Assembly (NCBI RefSeq): GCF_009914335.1
Contig: NZ_CP043925.1
Location: 868,001-932,000, forward strand
From: Proteus columbae
GTDB taxonomy: Bacteria > Pseudomonadota > Gammaproteobacteria > Enterobacterales > Enterobacteriaceae
Length of the DNA: 64,000 nucleotides
Reading direction: 5' to 3'
A model generated the notes under the pieces. The model made no database searches and was not told where the DNA came from. It saw only the letters and a list, made by a program, of their open reading frames with translations. Of this stretch, positions 13,548-37,136 are shown in pieces. The position numbers and the translations under genes are program-made. Position 1 is the stretch's first letter; every line of letters begins with the position of its first letter.

Positions 13548-13624
13548 GGAGCGGTAGTTCAGTTGGTTAGAATACCTGCCTGTCACGCAGGGGGTCGCGG
13601 GTTCGAGTCCCGTCCGTTCCGCCA
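13548..13624 (+). tRNA. tRNA-Asp (anticodon GTC)
   Basis: The 77-base sequence folds as a full cloverleaf: acceptor GGAGCGG / CCGTTCC, anticodon arm CCTGC-CTGTCAC-GCAGG with anticodon GTC, T-arm GCGGG-TTCGAGT-CCCGT and an encoded 3' CCA. It matches E. coli tRNA-Asp as I remember it almost base for base. Confidence 0.98.
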
Positions 13625-30024: not shown

Positions 30025-30942
30025 TTACAACTTAAATACCTCAAAATCAGAAGCCATTTCAGTATGGCTAAAGATCTGTTGGCTTTCATTGAGTAACTCA
30101 ACGCAGTCTTCGGGTAAATAACGGCTACTAATATGAGTAATAATCAGCTTTTTAGCATTAGCCTCTTTTGCTAATGTTGCCGCTTGCACAGTTGTTGAAT
30201 GTCCGCGACTATTTGCTTGCTCTGCCATTTCATGCTTAAACGTTGCTTCATGAACAATAACATCAGCATTATTAGCCAGCTTTAATGCATTAGGGGTTGG
30301 TTGAGTATCCCCAAAAATAGCAATACAACGACCTTCTATTTCATCACCAATATAGTCTTTACCATCAATTGTTCGTCCATCTGGTAATGTTATGGTTTTG
30401 CCTTGCTTTAAGTCTTGTAACCAAGAGCCTGCTGGAATATTTTCCGCTTTCAGTTTTTCTGCATCTAGCTTACCTGGTTTGTTTTCTTCTTCTAAGCGGT
30501 AACCAAAACAAGGTACGGGGTGAGACAGTGCCTCACAACTGACTTTCATACCTTCTTCTTCAAAAAGAAAACCTGCTTTGTCAATTTCTACAATATTAAT
30601 AGGGTAAGTTAAATAGGATTGGCTTAATGTTAGCGACGTTTCTATAAAGGCTTTTATACCCGTAGGACCATATACTGTTAAAAGTGTTTCCGTTCCACCC
30701 ATTGAGCGACTACAAAGTAATCCCGGTAAACCAAAAATATGATCGCCATGTAAGTGGGTAATAAAAATTTTATTTAAACGCGGTAGTTTCACGCGGGTAT
30801 GTAATATTTGATGTTGTGTCGCTTCACCACAATCAAACATCCACATACTTTTTTGTTTATTTTGTAAATCGAGCACCATACTTGTGACATTGCGATCTTT
30901 AGAAGGAACGCCTGCGTTAGTGCCTAAAAAAGTGAGCTCCAT
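30025..30942 (-). CDS. rnz: ribonuclease Z / RNase BN
   Basis: RNase Z is a zinc metallo-beta-lactamase-fold nuclease that trims tRNA 3' trailers. The 305-residue protein has the nuclease signature THLHGDHIFGLPGLL, the later ligands in IFGDTQPTPN, VHEATF and THISSRY, and a proline/glycine-rich flexible arm (AENIPAGSWLQDLKQG). It starts only 9 bases after the rtcR stop on the same strand, so the two are probably co-transcribed. This ties tRNA 3'-end processing to the RNA-repair regulator. Confidence 0.93.
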   Translation of the reverse strand: MELTFLGTNAGVPSKDRNVTSMVLDLQNKQKSMWMFDCGEATQHQILHTRVKLPRLNKIFITHLHGDHIFGLPGLLCSRSMGGTETLLTVYGPTGIKAFIETSLTLSQSYLTYPINIVEIDKAGFLFEEEGMKVSCEALSHPVPCFGYRLEEENKPGKLDAEKLKAENIPAGSWLQDLKQGKTITLPDGRTIDGKDYIGDEIEGRCIAIFGDTQPTPNALKLANNADVIVHEATFKHEMAEQANSRGHSTTVQAATLAKEANAKKLIITHISSRYLPEDCVELLNESQQIFSHTEMASDFEVFKL

Positions 30943-30951
30943 AATGAAATA

Positions 30952-32544
30952 TTATTCTCCATGTCTAATTTGTTCCCAACTTAAATCGAATTTCGCAAGA
31001 TACTTACGTAGGCGATCGGCATCGTTGGGTTGTTTTTTATTTTGTCTTGATACTGCGAAAAGTTTTCTACCGGCTTCTGAGAGTGTTGATGATTGCTGAC
31101 ACGTTTTGATAACGGTATTCAGTTGGCTAAGATCGAAAAGATCAATATCAGTGCTATTAAATAAAGAAGAGGAAGCAACTCCCCAATTTTGTTTTAAACG
31201 ATTAATTTCTTCATCAACAAGAGGAAGGGTAATACGACCATTTTCGGCAAGTGTTGCCATTCGCGTTATACTAGCACTAAGTTCACGGAAATTGCCACGC
31301 CATAATGCCTGTTCAGATGTTGCAAATCGAATATAGTGTGATTTTGCATCAGCGTTAAAACGGATTGCCTTTTGATAAAGCTTTGCAAAGTGATGCAATT
31401 CATAATCAATATTAGGCTCAATATCCTCTTTACGATTGGCTAAACTCGGTAATGAAAAAGACCATAAGTTGATCCTTGCATAGAGATCTTCACGAAAAAG
31501 TCCTTTCGCAATTTGCTTGTCCATATCACGATGCGTTCCTGCGATCAGCTGAAAATCACTTTGTACCTCAGTATCTGAGCCATAAGGATAAAAAGATTTC
31601 TCTTCTATCGCTTTAAGCAACATGGCTTGCTCATCAAGTCCTAACTCTGCAATTTCATCAAGAAATAAAATCCCTTTATCGGCTTCTCTTAATAATCCTT
31701 GTCTGGTTTGTAATGCGCCTGTAAATGCCCCTTTTACATGCCCAAATAAAGTGGACATTGCATTGTCACCACGCAAAGTGGCACAGTTAACAGCAATAAA
31801 ACGACCTTTTACAAAATGGCGAGACTGTCGTAATTCATAAATACGTTGAGCAAGGAATGATTTTCCAGCGCCTGTGGGGCCTGTTAATAAAATAGGCGCA
31901 ACGGAGCGTAATGCAACACGTTCAATTTGAGCAATTAAAGTATTAAAACGTTCATTACGTGTGGCGATCCCAGATTTTAAGAAAGAGAGGGACTCATTAT
32001 GGTAATGCTCAAATCGGCTCGTTAGTTTTGTATAACGGCTTAAATCGAGATCAATAACAGCATAACTACCTGTGGATGATTGTACTGTTTTGATGCCATC
32101 TTCATTTTCTATTTTAGAAGAAGGAGAGGTTTGTAATAGTTTTGCAGGTAAGTAATGGGCTTCAGTCAGGAGGAACCAGCAAATCTGGGCAATGTGCGTA
32201 CCTGTTGTGATATGTACATAATATTCTTCATTTTCAGTATCAAATGGATAATTTACTGCAAAATCAAGAAAGTGACTATAAACCTCTTCTAGATCCCAAG
32301 GATCACAAATGTCAATTTCGTAAGGTAATACCTCTGTGTCAGGGGAGACAGTATGAATATCTTCAGTGATTTTTGACGCTAACATTGAATCATTAGGTTG
32401 ATGGATCATGACCAATCGACTAACGGGGAAATCTTTTTGATGGCAAATCGAAATTGTTGGGCGCCATGAGTTCCATCTTTTATGACTTTTACCTCGTTTA
32501 TCTAATGTTGTGCCTAAAACACCAATCACCACTTTGCGTTTCAT
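30952..32544 (-). CDS. rtcR: sigma-54 dependent activator RtcR
   Basis: RtcR activates the RNA-repair operon in response to RNA damage signals. The 530-residue protein has an N-terminal CARF-type Rossmann domain (residues about 1-180, opening KVVIGVLGTTLD), which in characterised RtcR senses RNA ends carrying 2',3'-cyclic phosphate. The AAA+ domain follows with Walker A GPTGAGKS (222-229), the sigma-54 contact loop GAFTGA (272-277) and Walker B GILFLDEI (291-298). The C-terminal helix-turn-helix is TLSEAGRKLFAVSRQNKKQPNDADRL-like (last ~50 residues). It is divergent from the sigma-54 promoter at 32709-32725. Confidence 0.95.
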   Translation of the reverse strand: MKRKVVIGVLGTTLDKRGKSHKRWNSWRPTISICHQKDFPVSRLVMIHQPNDSMLASKITEDIHTVSPDTEVLPYEIDICDPWDLEEVYSHFLDFAVNYPFDTENEEYYVHITTGTHIAQICWFLLTEAHYLPAKLLQTSPSSKIENEDGIKTVQSSTGSYAVIDLDLSRYTKLTSRFEHYHNESLSFLKSGIATRNERFNTLIAQIERVALRSVAPILLTGPTGAGKSFLAQRIYELRQSRHFVKGRFIAVNCATLRGDNAMSTLFGHVKGAFTGALQTRQGLLREADKGILFLDEIAELGLDEQAMLLKAIEEKSFYPYGSDTEVQSDFQLIAGTHRDMDKQIAKGLFREDLYARINLWSFSLPSLANRKEDIEPNIDYELHHFAKLYQKAIRFNADAKSHYIRFATSEQALWRGNFRELSASITRMATLAENGRITLPLVDEEINRLKQNWGVASSSLFNSTDIDLFDLSQLNTVIKTCQQSSTLSEAGRKLFAVSRQNKKQPNDADRLRKYLAKFDLSWEQIRHGE

Positions 32545-32708
32545 TAAGTTATCCCTACTTATTTTTTATCTATATTTATAAATGTATAGATAAAAAGATA
32601 GGTTTTTATCATTTTTAATTCAATGGTTAAATATTTAAAAATTACGTTAAAAATATTTTTTCAAACAAAAACAATGAATTAAAAATATTTTTAGTGAGTT
32701 TTAAAAAC

Positions 32709-32725
32709 TTGGCACGATCCTCGCA
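32709..32725 (+). promoter_or_regulatory. sigma-54 promoter of the RNA-repair operon
   Basis: TTGGCACG-ATCC-TCGCA matches the -24/-12 consensus with the invariant GG and GC exactly spaced; one T to C change occurs in the -12 element. The expected start point is near 32736, at the first base of the leader RNA hairpin. RtcR binding sites are expected in 32545-32700. Confidence 0.85.
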
Positions 32726-32734
32726 ATATTATGA

Positions 32735-33017
32735 GTGTCTTGAGCAGATTTTAAATCTGGTAGGCACATAAAGAACACTCTGTGGTGTTATCTAAATGTG
32801 TTCCTCCACATCGGGACTCTGTAGGTGAAGAGGGTTATTTTCAGGTTCGATTCCTGACACCAAAAACCATTACAAATCCAAATGTAAAATTAAAGATAGA
32901 AAATCGTTGTGACAGCAGTACCGTCACCTTGCTTATCCACCAGCAACTACGCTGGATTGAAGGCAGAAGAAGAGACAAACAAAGCATCGTTCCTCTCTTG
33001 TTTTCCCTTCGATTTCG
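32735..33017 (+). ncRNA. structured tRNA-like leader RNA of the rtc operon
   Basis: This non-coding stretch between the sigma-54 start and the slipin gene is dense in stems. A 5' hairpin pairs GTGTCT (32735) with AGGCAC (32762) and CAGAT with ATCTG inside. A tRNA-like unit follows: TGGTG (32783-32787) pairs with CACCA (32858-32862); hairpins ATGTG/CACAT and CTCT/AGAG lie within; and a canonical T-arm has stem TCAGG/CCTGA and loop TTCGATT (32841-32857). Further stems are GTGAC/GTCAC, CCAGC/GCTGG and a long one closing ATTGAAGG with CCTTCGAT (to ~33017). The anticodon-like hairpin has a six-base loop and the D-arm is not normal, so it is not a functional tRNA. Bacterial Y RNAs near rtc operons have comparable tRNA-like modules. 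Confidence 0.55.
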
Positions 33018-33098
33018 CCAAGTTTGTTCGTGGAAAGCAAGTCACGATAAAAATGGTAATAAAAGAAAGCTAATAATAAAGAAGAGCAAAAGGAAGCA

Positions 33099-34244
33099 AT
33101 GATGATAAGAACAACAATAAAAGTGAAACAAGGACAGCTGGGTTTATTAAAGAAGGATGATGAGTATATTGACGTCCTTGTAGCTGGTGAGCATAAATTT
33201 TTCGATCTTCGTCGCCAATTAAGTGTTGAGCTGGTGGAGTTAAACGGCCCTGCAATTGAAAAAGAGAAAGCCGAGTTTTTACGCCAATATCATCCAGAAT
33301 GGGTGAGTGAATATTGTTTTGATATTGTGCTATCTGATGAAGAGATTGGCTTACTCTATGAAAATAGCTCACTCAAAGAGATCTTAGCGCCGAGTACTCG
33401 CCGTCTTTATTGGAATTATGCACAACGCTCAATGGAAGTGTTGTCAGCAAATGAATTGGAAGTTTCGCCAACTTTGGTTAAAAAATTGCAGCATCCAAAA
33501 TTACGTAACCAAACTGTAAAAGGCAGTGAAGGTGTATTAAGTGTGGATATTCCGACATGGCATGCTGGCATTATCCGTGTTGATGGTGAAGTTCAATCAC
33601 TATTGCCGCCGGGATTAAAAGGCTATTGGCGTTATCAGCACAAAGTTGATGTTGAGGTTGTTGATATGCGCTTACAAACACTCGATGTGAGTGGTCAAGA
33701 GATCTTAACGAAAGACAAAGTAACATTACGCATTAATTTGTCAGCAAGTTGGCGTTATAGCGATGTGCTTTCAGCGTACCAATTACTGAGTTCACCTCTT
33801 GAGTTCTTATATAAAGAGTTGCAGTTTGCGTTACGTGAAGCCGTAGGAACAAGAACATTAGATGAATTATTAGAGAATAAAACGCTGATTGACACTTTAG
33901 TGAGTGAAAAAATCAGTGAAGTGACTAAAGGATATGGTATTGAAGTGGCTTCATTAGGGGTAAAAGATATTGTTTTACCAGGCGAAATGAAAACGATTTT
34001 AGCGCAAGTGGTTGAGGCAGAAAAATCAGCACAGGCTAATGTTATTCGTCGAAGAGAAGAGACATCCGCAACACGCTCTTTATTAAATACGGCAAAAGTG
34101 ATGGAAAACAATCCAGTAGCCTTACGATTAAAAGAGCTAGAAACCGTAGAACGTATTGCAGAACGTATTGATAAGATTTCCGTTTATGGCGGTTTAGACC
34201 AAGTATTAAACGGGTTAGTACAAATTAAAGGGGCACAGGCATGA
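33099..34244 (+). CDS. slipin/SPFH-family protein of the RNA-repair operon
   Basis: A 381-residue SPFH (band 7) protein. The region from about residue 150 to 310 carries the fold: GIIRVDGEVQSLLPPGLKGYW, VVDMRLQTLDVSGQEILTKDKV, LRINLSASWRYSD and ALREAVGTRTLDELLE, then a helical part with GIEVASLGVKDIVLPGEMK. No membrane segment is present, unlike most slipins, and there is an N-terminal ~140-residue extension. The function is unknown; genes of this type occur beside rtcB in other bacteria. AAAGGAAG precedes the ATG, and its last four bases overlap the rtcB start (ATGA), implying coupled translation. Confidence 0.8.
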   Translation: MMIRTTIKVKQGQLGLLKKDDEYIDVLVAGEHKFFDLRRQLSVELVELNGPAIEKEKAEFLRQYHPEWVSEYCFDIVLSDEEIGLLYENSSLKEILAPSTRRLYWNYAQRSMEVLSANELEVSPTLVKKLQHPKLRNQTVKGSEGVLSVDIPTWHAGIIRVDGEVQSLLPPGLKGYWRYQHKVDVEVVDMRLQTLDVSGQEILTKDKVTLRINLSASWRYSDVLSAYQLLSSPLEFLYKELQFALREAVGTRTLDELLENKTLIDTLVSEKISEVTKGYGIEVASLGVKDIVLPGEMKTILAQVVEAEKSAQANVIRRREETSATRSLLNTAKVMENNPVALRLKELETVERIAERIDKISVYGGLDQVLNGLVQIKGAQA

Positions 34245-35464
34245 TATTGGATCATCAAATAGTAAAAGAAGCAGGAACTGCTGAAATCAAAATGTGGACA
34301 AATGGTGTACCTGTTGAAGCAGATGCTCTAAAACAACTTATTAATACCGCGAAGATGCCTTTTATTTTCAAACATATGGCAGTAATGCCAGATGTTCACT
34401 TAGGGAAAGGTTCAACAATCGGGAGTGTTATTCCAACAAAAGGCGCGATTATTCCAGCTGCTGTTGGTGTGGATATTGGGTGTGGAATGATTGCGGTGAA
34501 AACATCATTACACGCAAATGATCTGCCAGATAATTTATTTGCCATAAGAACGGCAATAGAAAGAGCAGTACCTCATGGAAGAACAAGTTATCAATCAGGG
34601 AATGATCGTGGTTCATGGAAGAACCCACCTAAACTTGTTGATCAACATTGGCAACAACTTGAAGGGCGTTTTAAGGTTTTAACTGATAAGTACCCACGTT
34701 TACGAAATACGAATAACTATCGTCACCTTGGTACATTAGGAACAGGAAATCACTTTATCGAATTGTGTCTTGATGAATCAGATAATGTTTGGGTAATGCT
34801 ACATAGTGGCTCTCGTGGTGTTGGTAATGCTATCGGTACGTTATTTATACAAATGGCACAAGAAGATATGAGGGAACATATCGCTAATTTACCTGATAAA
34901 AACTTAGCGTATTTAAAAGAAGGAACGCTTTTCTATGATGACTATATAGAAGCCATAGAATGGGCACAGGATTTTGCCCGACATAATCGTGAAATTATGA
35001 TGGAACGCGTGTTGGCGGCATTATCGACACAAATAACTAAACCTTTTACGACACAGCAACAGGCGGTGAACTGCCACCATAACTATGTACAAAAGGAAAT
35101 GCACTTTGGCGAAGAAGTACTGGTGACTCGAAAAGGAGCCGTTTCAGCTCAGAAAGGTGAAATGGGGATCATCCCTGGTTCAATGGGCGCTAAGAGCTTT
35201 ATTGTAAGAGGAAAAGGAAATGCCGAAAGTTTCTGTTCATGTAGTCATGGCGCAGGACGCGTAATGAGCCGAACAGCAGCGAAAAAAGCTTTTAGTGTTG
35301 AAGACCAAATTCGAGCAACAGCACATGTGGAATGTCGAAAAGATGAAGATGTGATTGATGAAATTCCGATGGCTTATAAGGATATTGATGCTGTTATGAA
35401 GGCTCAGTTATCACTTGTTGAGGTTGTTCATACACTACGACAGGTTGTTTGTGTAAAAGGATAA
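34241..35464 (+). CDS. rtcB: RNA-splicing ligase RtcB
   Basis: RtcB joins RNA 2',3'-cyclic phosphate or 3'-phosphate ends to 5'-OH ends using GTP and manganese. The 407-residue protein has the metal ligands in VGVDIGCGM, the GNHF.E motif in LGTGNHFIEL, MLHSGSRGVGN, HNYVQKE and the guanylylated histidine in CSCSHGAGRVMSR. It is the last gene of the operon; the RNA cyclase gene rtcA, which normally follows, is absent and no terminator hairpin is evident directly after it. Confidence 0.97.
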   Translation: MILDHQIVKEAGTAEIKMWTNGVPVEADALKQLINTAKMPFIFKHMAVMPDVHLGKGSTIGSVIPTKGAIIPAAVGVDIGCGMIAVKTSLHANDLPDNLFAIRTAIERAVPHGRTSYQSGNDRGSWKNPPKLVDQHWQQLEGRFKVLTDKYPRLRNTNNYRHLGTLGTGNHFIELCLDESDNVWVMLHSGSRGVGNAIGTLFIQMAQEDMREHIANLPDKNLAYLKEGTLFYDDYIEAIEWAQDFARHNREIMMERVLAALSTQITKPFTTQQQAVNCHHNYVQKEMHFGEEVLVTRKGAVSAQKGEMGIIPGSMGAKSFIVRGKGNAESFCSCSHGAGRVMSRTAAKKAFSVEDQIRATAHVECRKDEDVIDEIPMAYKDIDAVMKAQLSLVEVVHTLRQVVCVKG

Positions 35465-35898: not shown

Positions 35899-36465
35899 TT
35901 AATTTCTTGCATCCCAAATGTGAACAAATCGTTTTGAATTACTTGCAGTATAGATAACAGTATGTGAAATATTACGATGTCCTAAATAATCTTGAATTAA
36001 ACGAGTATCTCTACCTAAATCAGCGAGTGCATAGCCACATGCATGGCGTAACATATGGGGATGAGGGGCTATGGATACATTAGCATCTTTACCTAAACGG
36101 CGAAGTAATCCATACACTTGTTGACGAGAAATTGGACCTGTTTTTTGGGATAAAAAGACCCATTCTGAGTCAGCCTCTCTCCATGTTTCCCTTTTTTTCA
36201 ACCAGTTAACTAACGCTTCATACTCCTCTTCGATAATCGGTTGTGTTGTTGATAAACCGCCTTTTAAGCGTCTGACATAGAGTATTCGACTTTCTAAATC
36301 AATATCGCTTAAGGTTAAATTACATAGCTCGCTCACGCGAAACCCATGTAAAAAACACATTAAAAACATACAGTAATCTCTTTCTGGATACCGTCCTTCC
36401 TTTGCTTGCTTCAAAATAGAATTGATCTCAAAACGTGTAAGAAACTTGCGCTGCTTCATTTTCAT
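35899..36465 (-). CDS. mrpI: tyrosine recombinase MrpI (fimbrial phase switch)
   Basis: MrpI inverts the mrp promoter element and so turns MR/P fimbriae on and off. The 188-residue protein contains the full tyrosine recombinase set: Arg in FLHGFRVSELCNL, Lys in RRLKGG, His-x-x-Arg in HMLRHACG, His in LGHRNI and the nucleophile in VIYTAS. It is FimB/FimE-like in size. I start it at 36465 (MKMKQRKFLTR), where AAAAGG lies 5 bases upstream; a longer frame to 36513 lacks a site. It is divergent from mrpA across the invertible element. Confidence 0.95.
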   Translation of the reverse strand: MKMKQRKFLTRFEINSILKQAKEGRYPERDYCMFLMCFLHGFRVSELCNLTLSDIDLESRILYVRRLKGGLSTTQPIIEEEYEALVNWLKKRETWREADSEWVFLSQKTGPISRQQVYGLLRRLGKDANVSIAPHPHMLRHACGYALADLGRDTRLIQDYLGHRNISHTVIYTASNSKRFVHIWDARN

Positions 36466-36691
36466 AACCTTTTCAATGAGATAACAAGGAACAAAAGTCA
36501 ATTGATGCATCACTATAACAAGTAATATGCATCAATAAAGAGTTGTATTTTTTTTATGCTTACACTTTTACTTGTTCATTTTAAACAAGTTTATTGAAAG
36601 TTTATTTATTTTTAGAAAATGAAAGTGATTGATTGAAAAAGCGAAAAATGAGTATGGATAGGAATTTGGTTATCTTTAGAGAAATAAACAG

Positions 36692-36978
36692 AATACACCA
36701 AATTGTTTACTATTATTCTCTGGCTTCTCACTTAAGTCAAATTTAATGTTAATCACTTATCTTCATTTATTTAACATATTGATATTTATCATTATTTTAA
36801 AAAACAAACATGATTGGTTACTTTGTTTAAAATCCAGAAATAATTTTTTTTACTTTTTTCACAAATTATAGTAATTGCACTTAGAATTATAAACTCTTTT
36901 TTCGATATTTAAAGTTTGATTATCTAAATGTGTTTAATTTCGAGATGAAAATTTTTAACAAAACAATTTGGTGTATTT
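36692..36978. mobile_element. MR/P invertible promoter element with its inverted repeats
   Basis: AATACACCAAATTGTTT at 36692-36708 recurs as its exact reverse complement at 36962-36978. With one mismatch the repeats extend outward to about 21 bp (ACA.AATACACCAAATTGTTT). The enclosed 253 bp agrees with the published MR/P invertible element (about 251 bp with 21-bp repeats). MrpI is the expected recombinase. Confidence 0.93.
36712..36740 (-). promoter_or_regulatory. mrp operon promoter, oriented toward mrpI (phase OFF)
   Basis: On the minus strand, TTGACT-N17-AATAAT reads out of the left inverted repeat toward mrpI. The same hexamers and a similar spacer (TTGACTTAA..., ...CCAGAG) drive mrp' at 46297-46325 on the plus strand. 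Inversion would place this promoter at the right edge of the element facing mrpA. Confidence 0.75.
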
Positions 36979-37136
36979 TGTTTTGTTTCTAACGATATTT
37001 AATTTCGTTTTGGACGGGCACAAGTATACCAAAATTCAAAAACTCAATAAGTGAGTCATTCAATTAGGAATAATTCAATCCTAATGAATTTATTATTTTT
37101 AATGTCTTCGTCCTTTATATTTTAGGAAACAAAAAG

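Follow-up and report, generated by a model that had tools for sequence, protein, structure and literature searches.

A tRNA-like, two-domain leader RNA beside slipin in a sigma-54/RtcR-controlled operon of Proteus columbae

The slipin-rtcB operon of Proteus columbae opens with a structured RNA. It lies in a 64,000-nucleotide stretch of a 4.11 Mb, single-contig genome (assembly GCF_009914335.1, contig NZ_CP043925.1, positions 868,001 to 932,000), which we call the window and whose first letter is position 1 of the window coordinates (forward strand unless stated otherwise). Between a sigma-54 box and the gene for slipin, an SPFH/Band-7 protein, a leader of about 370 nucleotides (nt) holds two domains, the tRNA-like D1 and the rod-shaped D2, and comparison of homologues shows, as far as sequences can tell, that this leader RNA is under selection for its structure. 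The RNA was found only beside slipin, a hint that protein and RNA act as partners when tRNAs are broken. In our judgement there is about an even chance that this is a tRNA-damage operon under sigma-54/RtcR control, whose first product would be a two-domain RNA acting with slipin as a scaffold or decoy for the RNA ligase RtcB.

Covariation and tRNA mimicry in the leader RNA

The two domains were defined from slipin loci in genome contigs, namely the best 80 of at least 568 relatives, a sample and no census; 45 are enterobacterial (L012-L055 and L059) and 35 lie beyond the enterobacteria. For D1 (32731-32868), 46 sequences were extracted, two further loci (L039 and L045) having no T-motif by pattern; exclusion of the beta-proteobacterial L057 and L058 and thinning at 0.9 similarity left 31 of the 46. 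In this alignment (A1), 31 pairs form seven helices and 27 of the pairs show double changes; 89.1% of cells are paired, against 76.4% in shuffled and 36-48% in slid alignments, and covariation reaches 0.444 against 0.225 (standard deviation 0.011), a value attained by none of 500 shuffles. One of the five measures, that of further pair types, did not go beyond the shuffles (103 of 500). The signal of D2 (32929-33041) comes from 30 sequences (alignments A2/A3) and 23 pairs, with 92.4% of cells paired against 76.5% in shuffled and 41-52% in slid alignments, and with covariation of 0.594 against 0.283 in shuffled ones; none of 500 shuffles matched it on any measure. Each structure was derived from the very alignment on which it was tested, which biases the slide control in its favour; an effect of this size is unlikely to be an artefact. 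The first-pass annotation, made from the letters of the window, had described a many-stemmed RNA and had named compensatory changes as its check, and both domains display them.

Covariance models for D1 (R1) and D2 (R2) score the window at 73.1 and 64.1 bits, the window being among the training sequences of each. R1 also matches the 15 enterobacterial loci outside A1 with 59.9-107.8 bits, several of these being close relatives of A1 members, and R2 matched L028, which had been excluded from its alignment for an insertion in D2, with 55.5 bits. In single-sequence folding, D1 alone is unremarkable (z -0.47) and the 369-nt leader is unusual (z -3.28). Inside the rod of D2, a conserved 10-base-pair (bp) helix, GGAUUGAAGG (32954-32963) with CCUUCGAUUU (33006-33015), is joined by an outer helix and a conserved internal loop. 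An initial guess at a D2 hairpin (A2 columns 39-44 with 56-61) was out of register at 29.7% paired and was left out of R2.

Comparison shows that D1 imitates a tRNA in pieces, at least in its predicted pairing: an anticodon-like loop with an invariant U33, and an acceptor/T-arm minihelix. The anticodon-like stem-loop (32745-32759) consists of 4 bp, a helix 95.7% paired in the alignment, and the 7-nt loop UUUUAAA (32749-32755), with position 32750 as the U33 equivalent. Across 68 distinct homologous RNAs, loop position 2 is U in every one (67 of 67 when the row of L067, a T-arm in the wrong place, is removed), and positions 1, 3 and 4 are mixed; the loop measures 7 nt in 36, 6 nt in 25, 8 nt in five and 9 nt in two. 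One reading of this constraint, which we consider improbable, is that the loop serves as bait, cut by anticodon nucleases in place of a tRNA and resealed by RtcB. An invariant U33 among variable neighbours is what such a bait might look like, but a loop of 6 rather than 7 nt in more than a third of the RNAs fits it poorly.

A closing helix, P1/P2, pairs 32737-32743 with 32811-32817 and is intact over its 7 bp in eight of nine Proteus sequences, the ninth (L019) being out of register there; the alignment registers the 5' end poorly, which leaves P1 just 58% paired there. Between 32762 and 32805, P4 (32762-32767 with 32798-32805; 97.8% paired) encloses P5 (32772-32778 with 32785-32793; 100%). 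The acceptor-like helix joins GGUG (32824-32827) to CACC (32858-32861). It is kept in all nine Proteus sequences, with a compensatory change of the outermost pair from G-C to A-U in L019, and is 78.7% paired in A1, where 10-11 of the 31 sequences have gaps. It replaces the acceptor-like pairing that had first been proposed, GTGTC (32735-32739) with GACAC (32856-32860); four of the nine have lost that pairing with no compensatory change. The T-arm with its TTCGATT loop, which the first-pass annotation had noted, lies at 32842-32856 (CAGG-UUCGAUU-CCUG, CAGGTTCGATTCCTG, core GGUUCGANUC); its invariance in A1 is partly a product of selection, since the T-loop motif was required for extracting the sequences.

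A D arm is absent from the covarying helices of D1, and in the window the 13 nt between acceptor and T-arm are too few for one. A GG in this interval, found in 38 of the 51 gamma-proteobacterial sequences (of 62) with a findable acceptor, is possibly a remnant of the D-loop. Mimicry of a tRNA end by a 3'-terminal ACC was considered and dropped: it occurs in 7 of the 51 sequences with a local acceptor, none being findable in 11 of 62, and the greedy script returned some spurious-looking stems. ARAGORN and Rfam, including the tRNA family RF00005, found no cloverleaf tRNA, tmRNA or other family at the leader; at a permissive threshold Rfam gave matches below the gathering score alone (e.g. TUG1_2, L10_leader and CrcZ).

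Slipin as the constant partner of the RNA

The distribution of the two domains was followed through 295 genomes of the family. R1 matches 196 of them at E <= 0.01; 29 score at least 73 bits and the next score is 28 bits. Our count of D1 genomes uses the matches of at least 73 bits only. In the locus scan, weak matches fell on tRNAs such as the tRNA-Asp at 13548, the sole tRNA called in the window. R2 matches 29 genomes at E <= 1e-4, and they are the same 29. Slipin itself (E <= 1e-20) is found in 31 genomes, which include all 29, and no strong D1 or D2 match occurs among the 295 in a genome without slipin; few candidates were scored per genome (10 for R1, 13 for R2) and the filters were strict, so that a weak copy might escape detection. 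The two slipin genomes outside the 29 have shortened matches (G193, residues 278-380; G282, residues 7-290 at 44%), and one of the 31, G028, is 49% complete. G082, which belongs to the genus of the window, lacks slipin at this threshold, a strong D1 and any D2 match; not every member of the genus therefore carries the operon. Eight Proteus records hold slipins that match the one in the window at 85-97%. At the DNA level the region gave no match in a search of plasmids and a match at E <= 0.001 in 11 of the 295 genomes, three of these matches strong (its own genome and two of the same genus) and the other eight short, with E of about 5e-4 to 1e-3.

Slipin can be separated from RtcB as the partner. 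Nineteen enterobacterial loci were scored without rtcB after slipin; six are Proteus loci in which rtcB overlaps slipin, which leaves 13 of 45 without rtcB beside slipin. All 13 keep D1 (85.8-117.2 bits; 10 of them in the R1 training set), so slipin and not RtcB is the constant partner of the RNA. In 12 of the 13 the place is taken by RlaP, and L048 has neither; RlaP stands near slipin in 35 of the 45 enterobacterial loci, and Pfam confirmed its identity (PF10127) for four proteins, of which three come from loci without adjacent rtcB.

The protein (33099-34244; Pfam Band_7, 1.4e-26) has an SPFH fold and three N-terminal beta repeats, and no segment hydrophobic enough for a membrane helix, the highest 19-residue hydropathy being 0.95. 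Two slipins carry an additional N-terminal repeat unit (L038 4989-6563, 524 residues; L068 4971-6575, 534 residues; against 381). A vault-like architecture, after the major vault protein, was considered and is not established: the N-terminal part alone had no Foldseek match at E <= 0.001.

RtcR control and the missing RtcA

The operon runs from a sigma-54 (-24/-12) box, TGGCACGATCCTCGCA (32710-32725), which bears out the near-consensus promoter claimed at the outset; the box of L016, identical to it, scores 20 of 21 on a weighted sigma-54 scale, and transcription probably starts near 32735. Divergent to it, on the reverse strand, lies rtcR (30952-32544), encoding a sigma-54 activator with a full RtcR (CARF-type) domain (Pfam RtcR, 1.2e-78; 794.8 bits against the NF038308 equivalog with a cut-off of 650). 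Downstream, slipin overlaps rtcB (34241-35464; Pfam RtcB, 7.2e-131) by 4 nt, the overlap that had been noted before. Box and regulator go together: a box of at least 18/21 precedes slipin in all 56 loci with RtcR by tblastn, against 2 of the 24 in which no RtcR was found, one of these two (L069) being cut by a contig end. Among plain shuffles, 3 of 78 attain 18. In nine of the 24 the sequence before slipin is shorter than 2.3 kb, and a contig end may have removed rtcR from some of them.

In this setting rtcR, the sigma-54 box and rtcB are all present, while rtcA, which E. coli and Salmonella have in operon or genome, is missing: RtcA (PF01137) has no match across the whole genome of the window, with a positive E. 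coli control. The activation of RtcR must thus differ from that in Salmonella in at least this step. There, RtcR binds 5' tRNA halves with a cyclic phosphate (PMC7790460). The bait reading has a sensor half, to which we likewise give little credence, in which the 5' piece of the cut RNA, ending in a 2',3'-cyclic phosphate, feeds RtcR and makes RtcA dispensable. The Salmonella ligand speaks for it, together with the role of competitive inhibitor proposed in the same text for the tRNA-like part of the Salmonella RNA YrlA, and 30 of the 31 slipin genomes, including that of the window, have no RtcA match. But with RtcA present in just 9 of the 295 genomes, its absence is no special exclusion; fragments of YrlA were not detected in Salmonella, according to that text (PMC7790460); and an RNA made only after RtcR is active could amplify the signal, not start it.

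YrlA is also the nearest model for our own explanation. Like ours, the rsr-yrlBA-rtcBA operon of Salmonella is under RtcR/sigma-54 control and includes RtcB, and its YrlA, encoded beside a ring protein, is a structured RNA whose T and acceptor parts resemble those of a tRNA (PMC7790460, PMC8394870). By analogy, the leader RNA would most likely stand to slipin as YrlA does to Rsr: a tRNA mimic, induced through RtcR, that belongs with a ring protein. Unlike the Salmonella system, the genome of the window has no match to Rsr or RtcA, and D1 lacks a D stem but has an anticodon-like arm. For a basal stem between the two ends of the RNA, a mark of bacterial Y RNAs, the one candidate put forward here is the GTGTC/GACAC pairing, which is not conserved. 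The absence of Ro/Rsr (TROVE, PF05731; 0 matches in the genome, Deinobacterium control positive) is to be read with a model that is weak on enterobacterial Rsr, scoring 19-27 bits and passing the cut-off for three of seven. Across the 295 genomes, Rsr matches occur in seven, none of them with slipin, a strong D1 or any D2 match, and in six of these genomes Rsr lies no more than about 4 kb from RtcA.

The association has reportedly been seen before. Burroughs and Aravind, writing in Nucleic Acids Research (NAR) in 2016 (doi 10.1093/nar/gkw722), are said to have been the first to link Band-7 proteins to "a novel tRNA-like molecule" in RtcB-type operons. Those operons reportedly resemble ours in Band-7, RtcB and the tRNA-like RNA, with the pol-beta-type nucleotidyltransferase RlaP in relatives; their paper may already cover D2, the invariant U33 and the RtcA-less setting. 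Open-access literature, as far as its text was available, yielded no description of a leader RNA or of tRNA arrays next to slipin-rtcB, and D2, the U33 rule, the RtcA-less setting and the tRNA arrays are the parts not found described there.

tRNA arrays in relatives and the role of the RNA

In nine loci beyond the enterobacteria (Gilliamella, Neisseriales, Lampropedia), ARAGORN recognises a cloverleaf tRNA within the leader; its end lies 224-294 nt ahead of the slipin match, and its anticodon is aat, cgg, atc, acc, agg or tta. To our knowledge, anticodons starting in A, or tta, are rarely or never used by bacterial tRNAs; cloverleafs bearing them stand at L057 4703-4777, L069 177-251, L073 4636-4708, L076 2953-3027, L083 4651-4724 and L084 4650-4725. 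Of the 35 non-enterobacterial loci, 22 have two successive T-arm motifs, 70-79 nt apart and within 245-433 nt of slipin.

At least two tRNA genes, and up to 19, stand upstream of slipin in 14 of the 80 loci, 13 of which have no RtcR in the stretch covered; among nine whole genomes of this group (L062, L064, L067, L071, L077, L078, L080, L081, L091), eight have no RtcR match. Six beta-proteobacterial arrays of 6-19 tRNA genes precede slipin and the tRNA-like RNA (L064 2814-3675, L067 3131-3691, L071 1580-3873, L074 1682-3812, L077 32-1978, L078 238-4722), five of them without RtcR; in L077, which has it, the array lies behind rtcR. The arrays hold additional tRNA genes, as 40 and 37 tRNA matches lie elsewhere in the genomes of L071 and L078 (14 of 55 and 21 of 59 in the array, respectively, and one more in each being the leader element).

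Such arrays would also be expected if the tRNA-like element were a functionless remnant, a decayed tRNA gene of an ancestral array linked to slipin-rtcB. This is very improbable: compensatory change and the invariant U33 point to ongoing selection, so that covariation already disfavours decay, and 29 of the 31 slipin genomes keep both domains. A parallel to the arrays that precede slipin where RtcR is lacking is the trn operon of Anabaena, a stress-induced spare tRNA operon that is co-regulated with rtcB and a slipin gene in the TrcR regulon; it differs in its regulator, TrcR, and in the separate places of its genes, and no tRNA-like leader was found described in the available part of that report (PMC10272220). 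A bolder version of the bait reading, which we regard as a long shot, joins these observations: D1 would be expendable, its U33 loop cut, its 5' piece feeding RtcR without RtcA, the RNA held in the SPFH ring and resealed by RtcB, and lineages that lost RtcR would have swapped this circuit for spare-tRNA arrays before the same RNA and slipin.

In the explanation that we prefer, with slipin and the RNA as scaffold or decoy, broken tRNAs would activate RtcR, and the RNA, separate and stable, would assemble with a soluble slipin ring, D2 serving as the handle and D1 as the tRNA-like face. The complex would then bring tRNA-handling enzymes or damaged tRNA to RtcB, with RlaP in many relatives as a further recipient or in place of RtcB, a role that may be likened to that thought for Rsr and YrlA in the Salmonella-type operon. 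We infer both the separate, stable RNA and its function as scaffold or decoy. The first-pass annotation had offered a Y-RNA-like product, a substrate or decoy for RtcB or RNase Z, or the ligand of RtcR, and is supported in part. The Y-RNA-like and decoy roles live on in our explanation, and the RtcR ligand appears in the improbable bait reading.

Several points weigh against our explanation. Binding of the RNA by slipin is itself conjecture. RtcA is required for activation in Salmonella, so that trigger cannot simply be transferred to a genome without RtcA. Exclusion of RtcA or Rsr by slipin was tested and dropped: with 9 and 7 genomes against 31 with slipin among the 295, the overlaps of 1 and 0 compare with 0.95 and 0.74 expected, and neither is significant. 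Slipin and RtcA are not incompatible, as one slipin genome has both, and outside the family, where the separation is looser, Pseudomonas aeruginosa PA14 is reported to have an SPFH gene inside an rtc locus with RtcA, RtcB and RtcR (PMC13086221). Lastly, no terminator was found between the leader RNA and slipin, sigma-70 promoters and terminators being no commoner there than in shuffles, so the RNA may exist only as an mRNA leader.

This last point leads to the main rival, which we think unlikely, though less so than the bait: D1 and D2 would form a long 5' untranslated region that governs in cis how the slipin-rtcB mRNA is translated or how stable it is, perhaps through slipin binding or a response to the state of tRNAs, and no separate RNA would be made. 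The short distance from D2 to the slipin start, 57 nt in the window (33041 to 33099) and 17 nt in L036 (4971 to 4989), agrees with it, as does the confinement of strong D1 and D2 matches to slipin genomes. Yet a plain leader has no need to imitate an acceptor, a T-arm and an anticodon loop; no Rfam leader, the T-box included, matches in the window or, at the gathering score, in 13 relatives; and tRNAs or tRNA-like cloverleafs occupy the same stretch in relatives.

Other features surround the operon. Behind rtcR by 9 nt and on the same, reverse strand lies the gene of RNase Z/RNase BN (30025-30942), which is also present in 20 of the 45 enterobacterial slipin loci and could be a processing enzyme for the tRNA-like end. 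An open reading frame of 106 residues over the RNA (32782-33102) was rejected as a gene; it has no Pfam or NCBIfam match and crosses both covarying domains. Elsewhere in the genome are a second RtcB-family gene (G000:C1:372512-373543, a 402-residue frame) and two adjacent RlaP (PF10127) matches away from the operon (G000:C1:2274385-2275525). Downstream in the window, the gene of a tyrosine-type DNA invertase (35899-36513; above the cut-off of NCBIfam PRK09870) stands in front of fimbria-like genes, together with a 23-nt inverted repeat whose arms, 36686-36708 and 36961-36983, are 252 nt apart and 96% complementary; the region 35899-37136 is probably a phase-variation switch.

The analysis defines an RNA family open to testing, with a covariance model for each domain and with slipin, as distinct from RtcB, for its partner, and it brings to light RtcR systems that must work without RtcA. 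A mimic of the anticodon loop in a tRNA-damage operon bears on the role of Y-RNA-like and Band-7 components in RNA repair. That tRNA arrays go with an absence of RtcR hints at two answers to one problem, in which damaged tRNAs may be met by repair or decoy in some lineages and by replacement in others.

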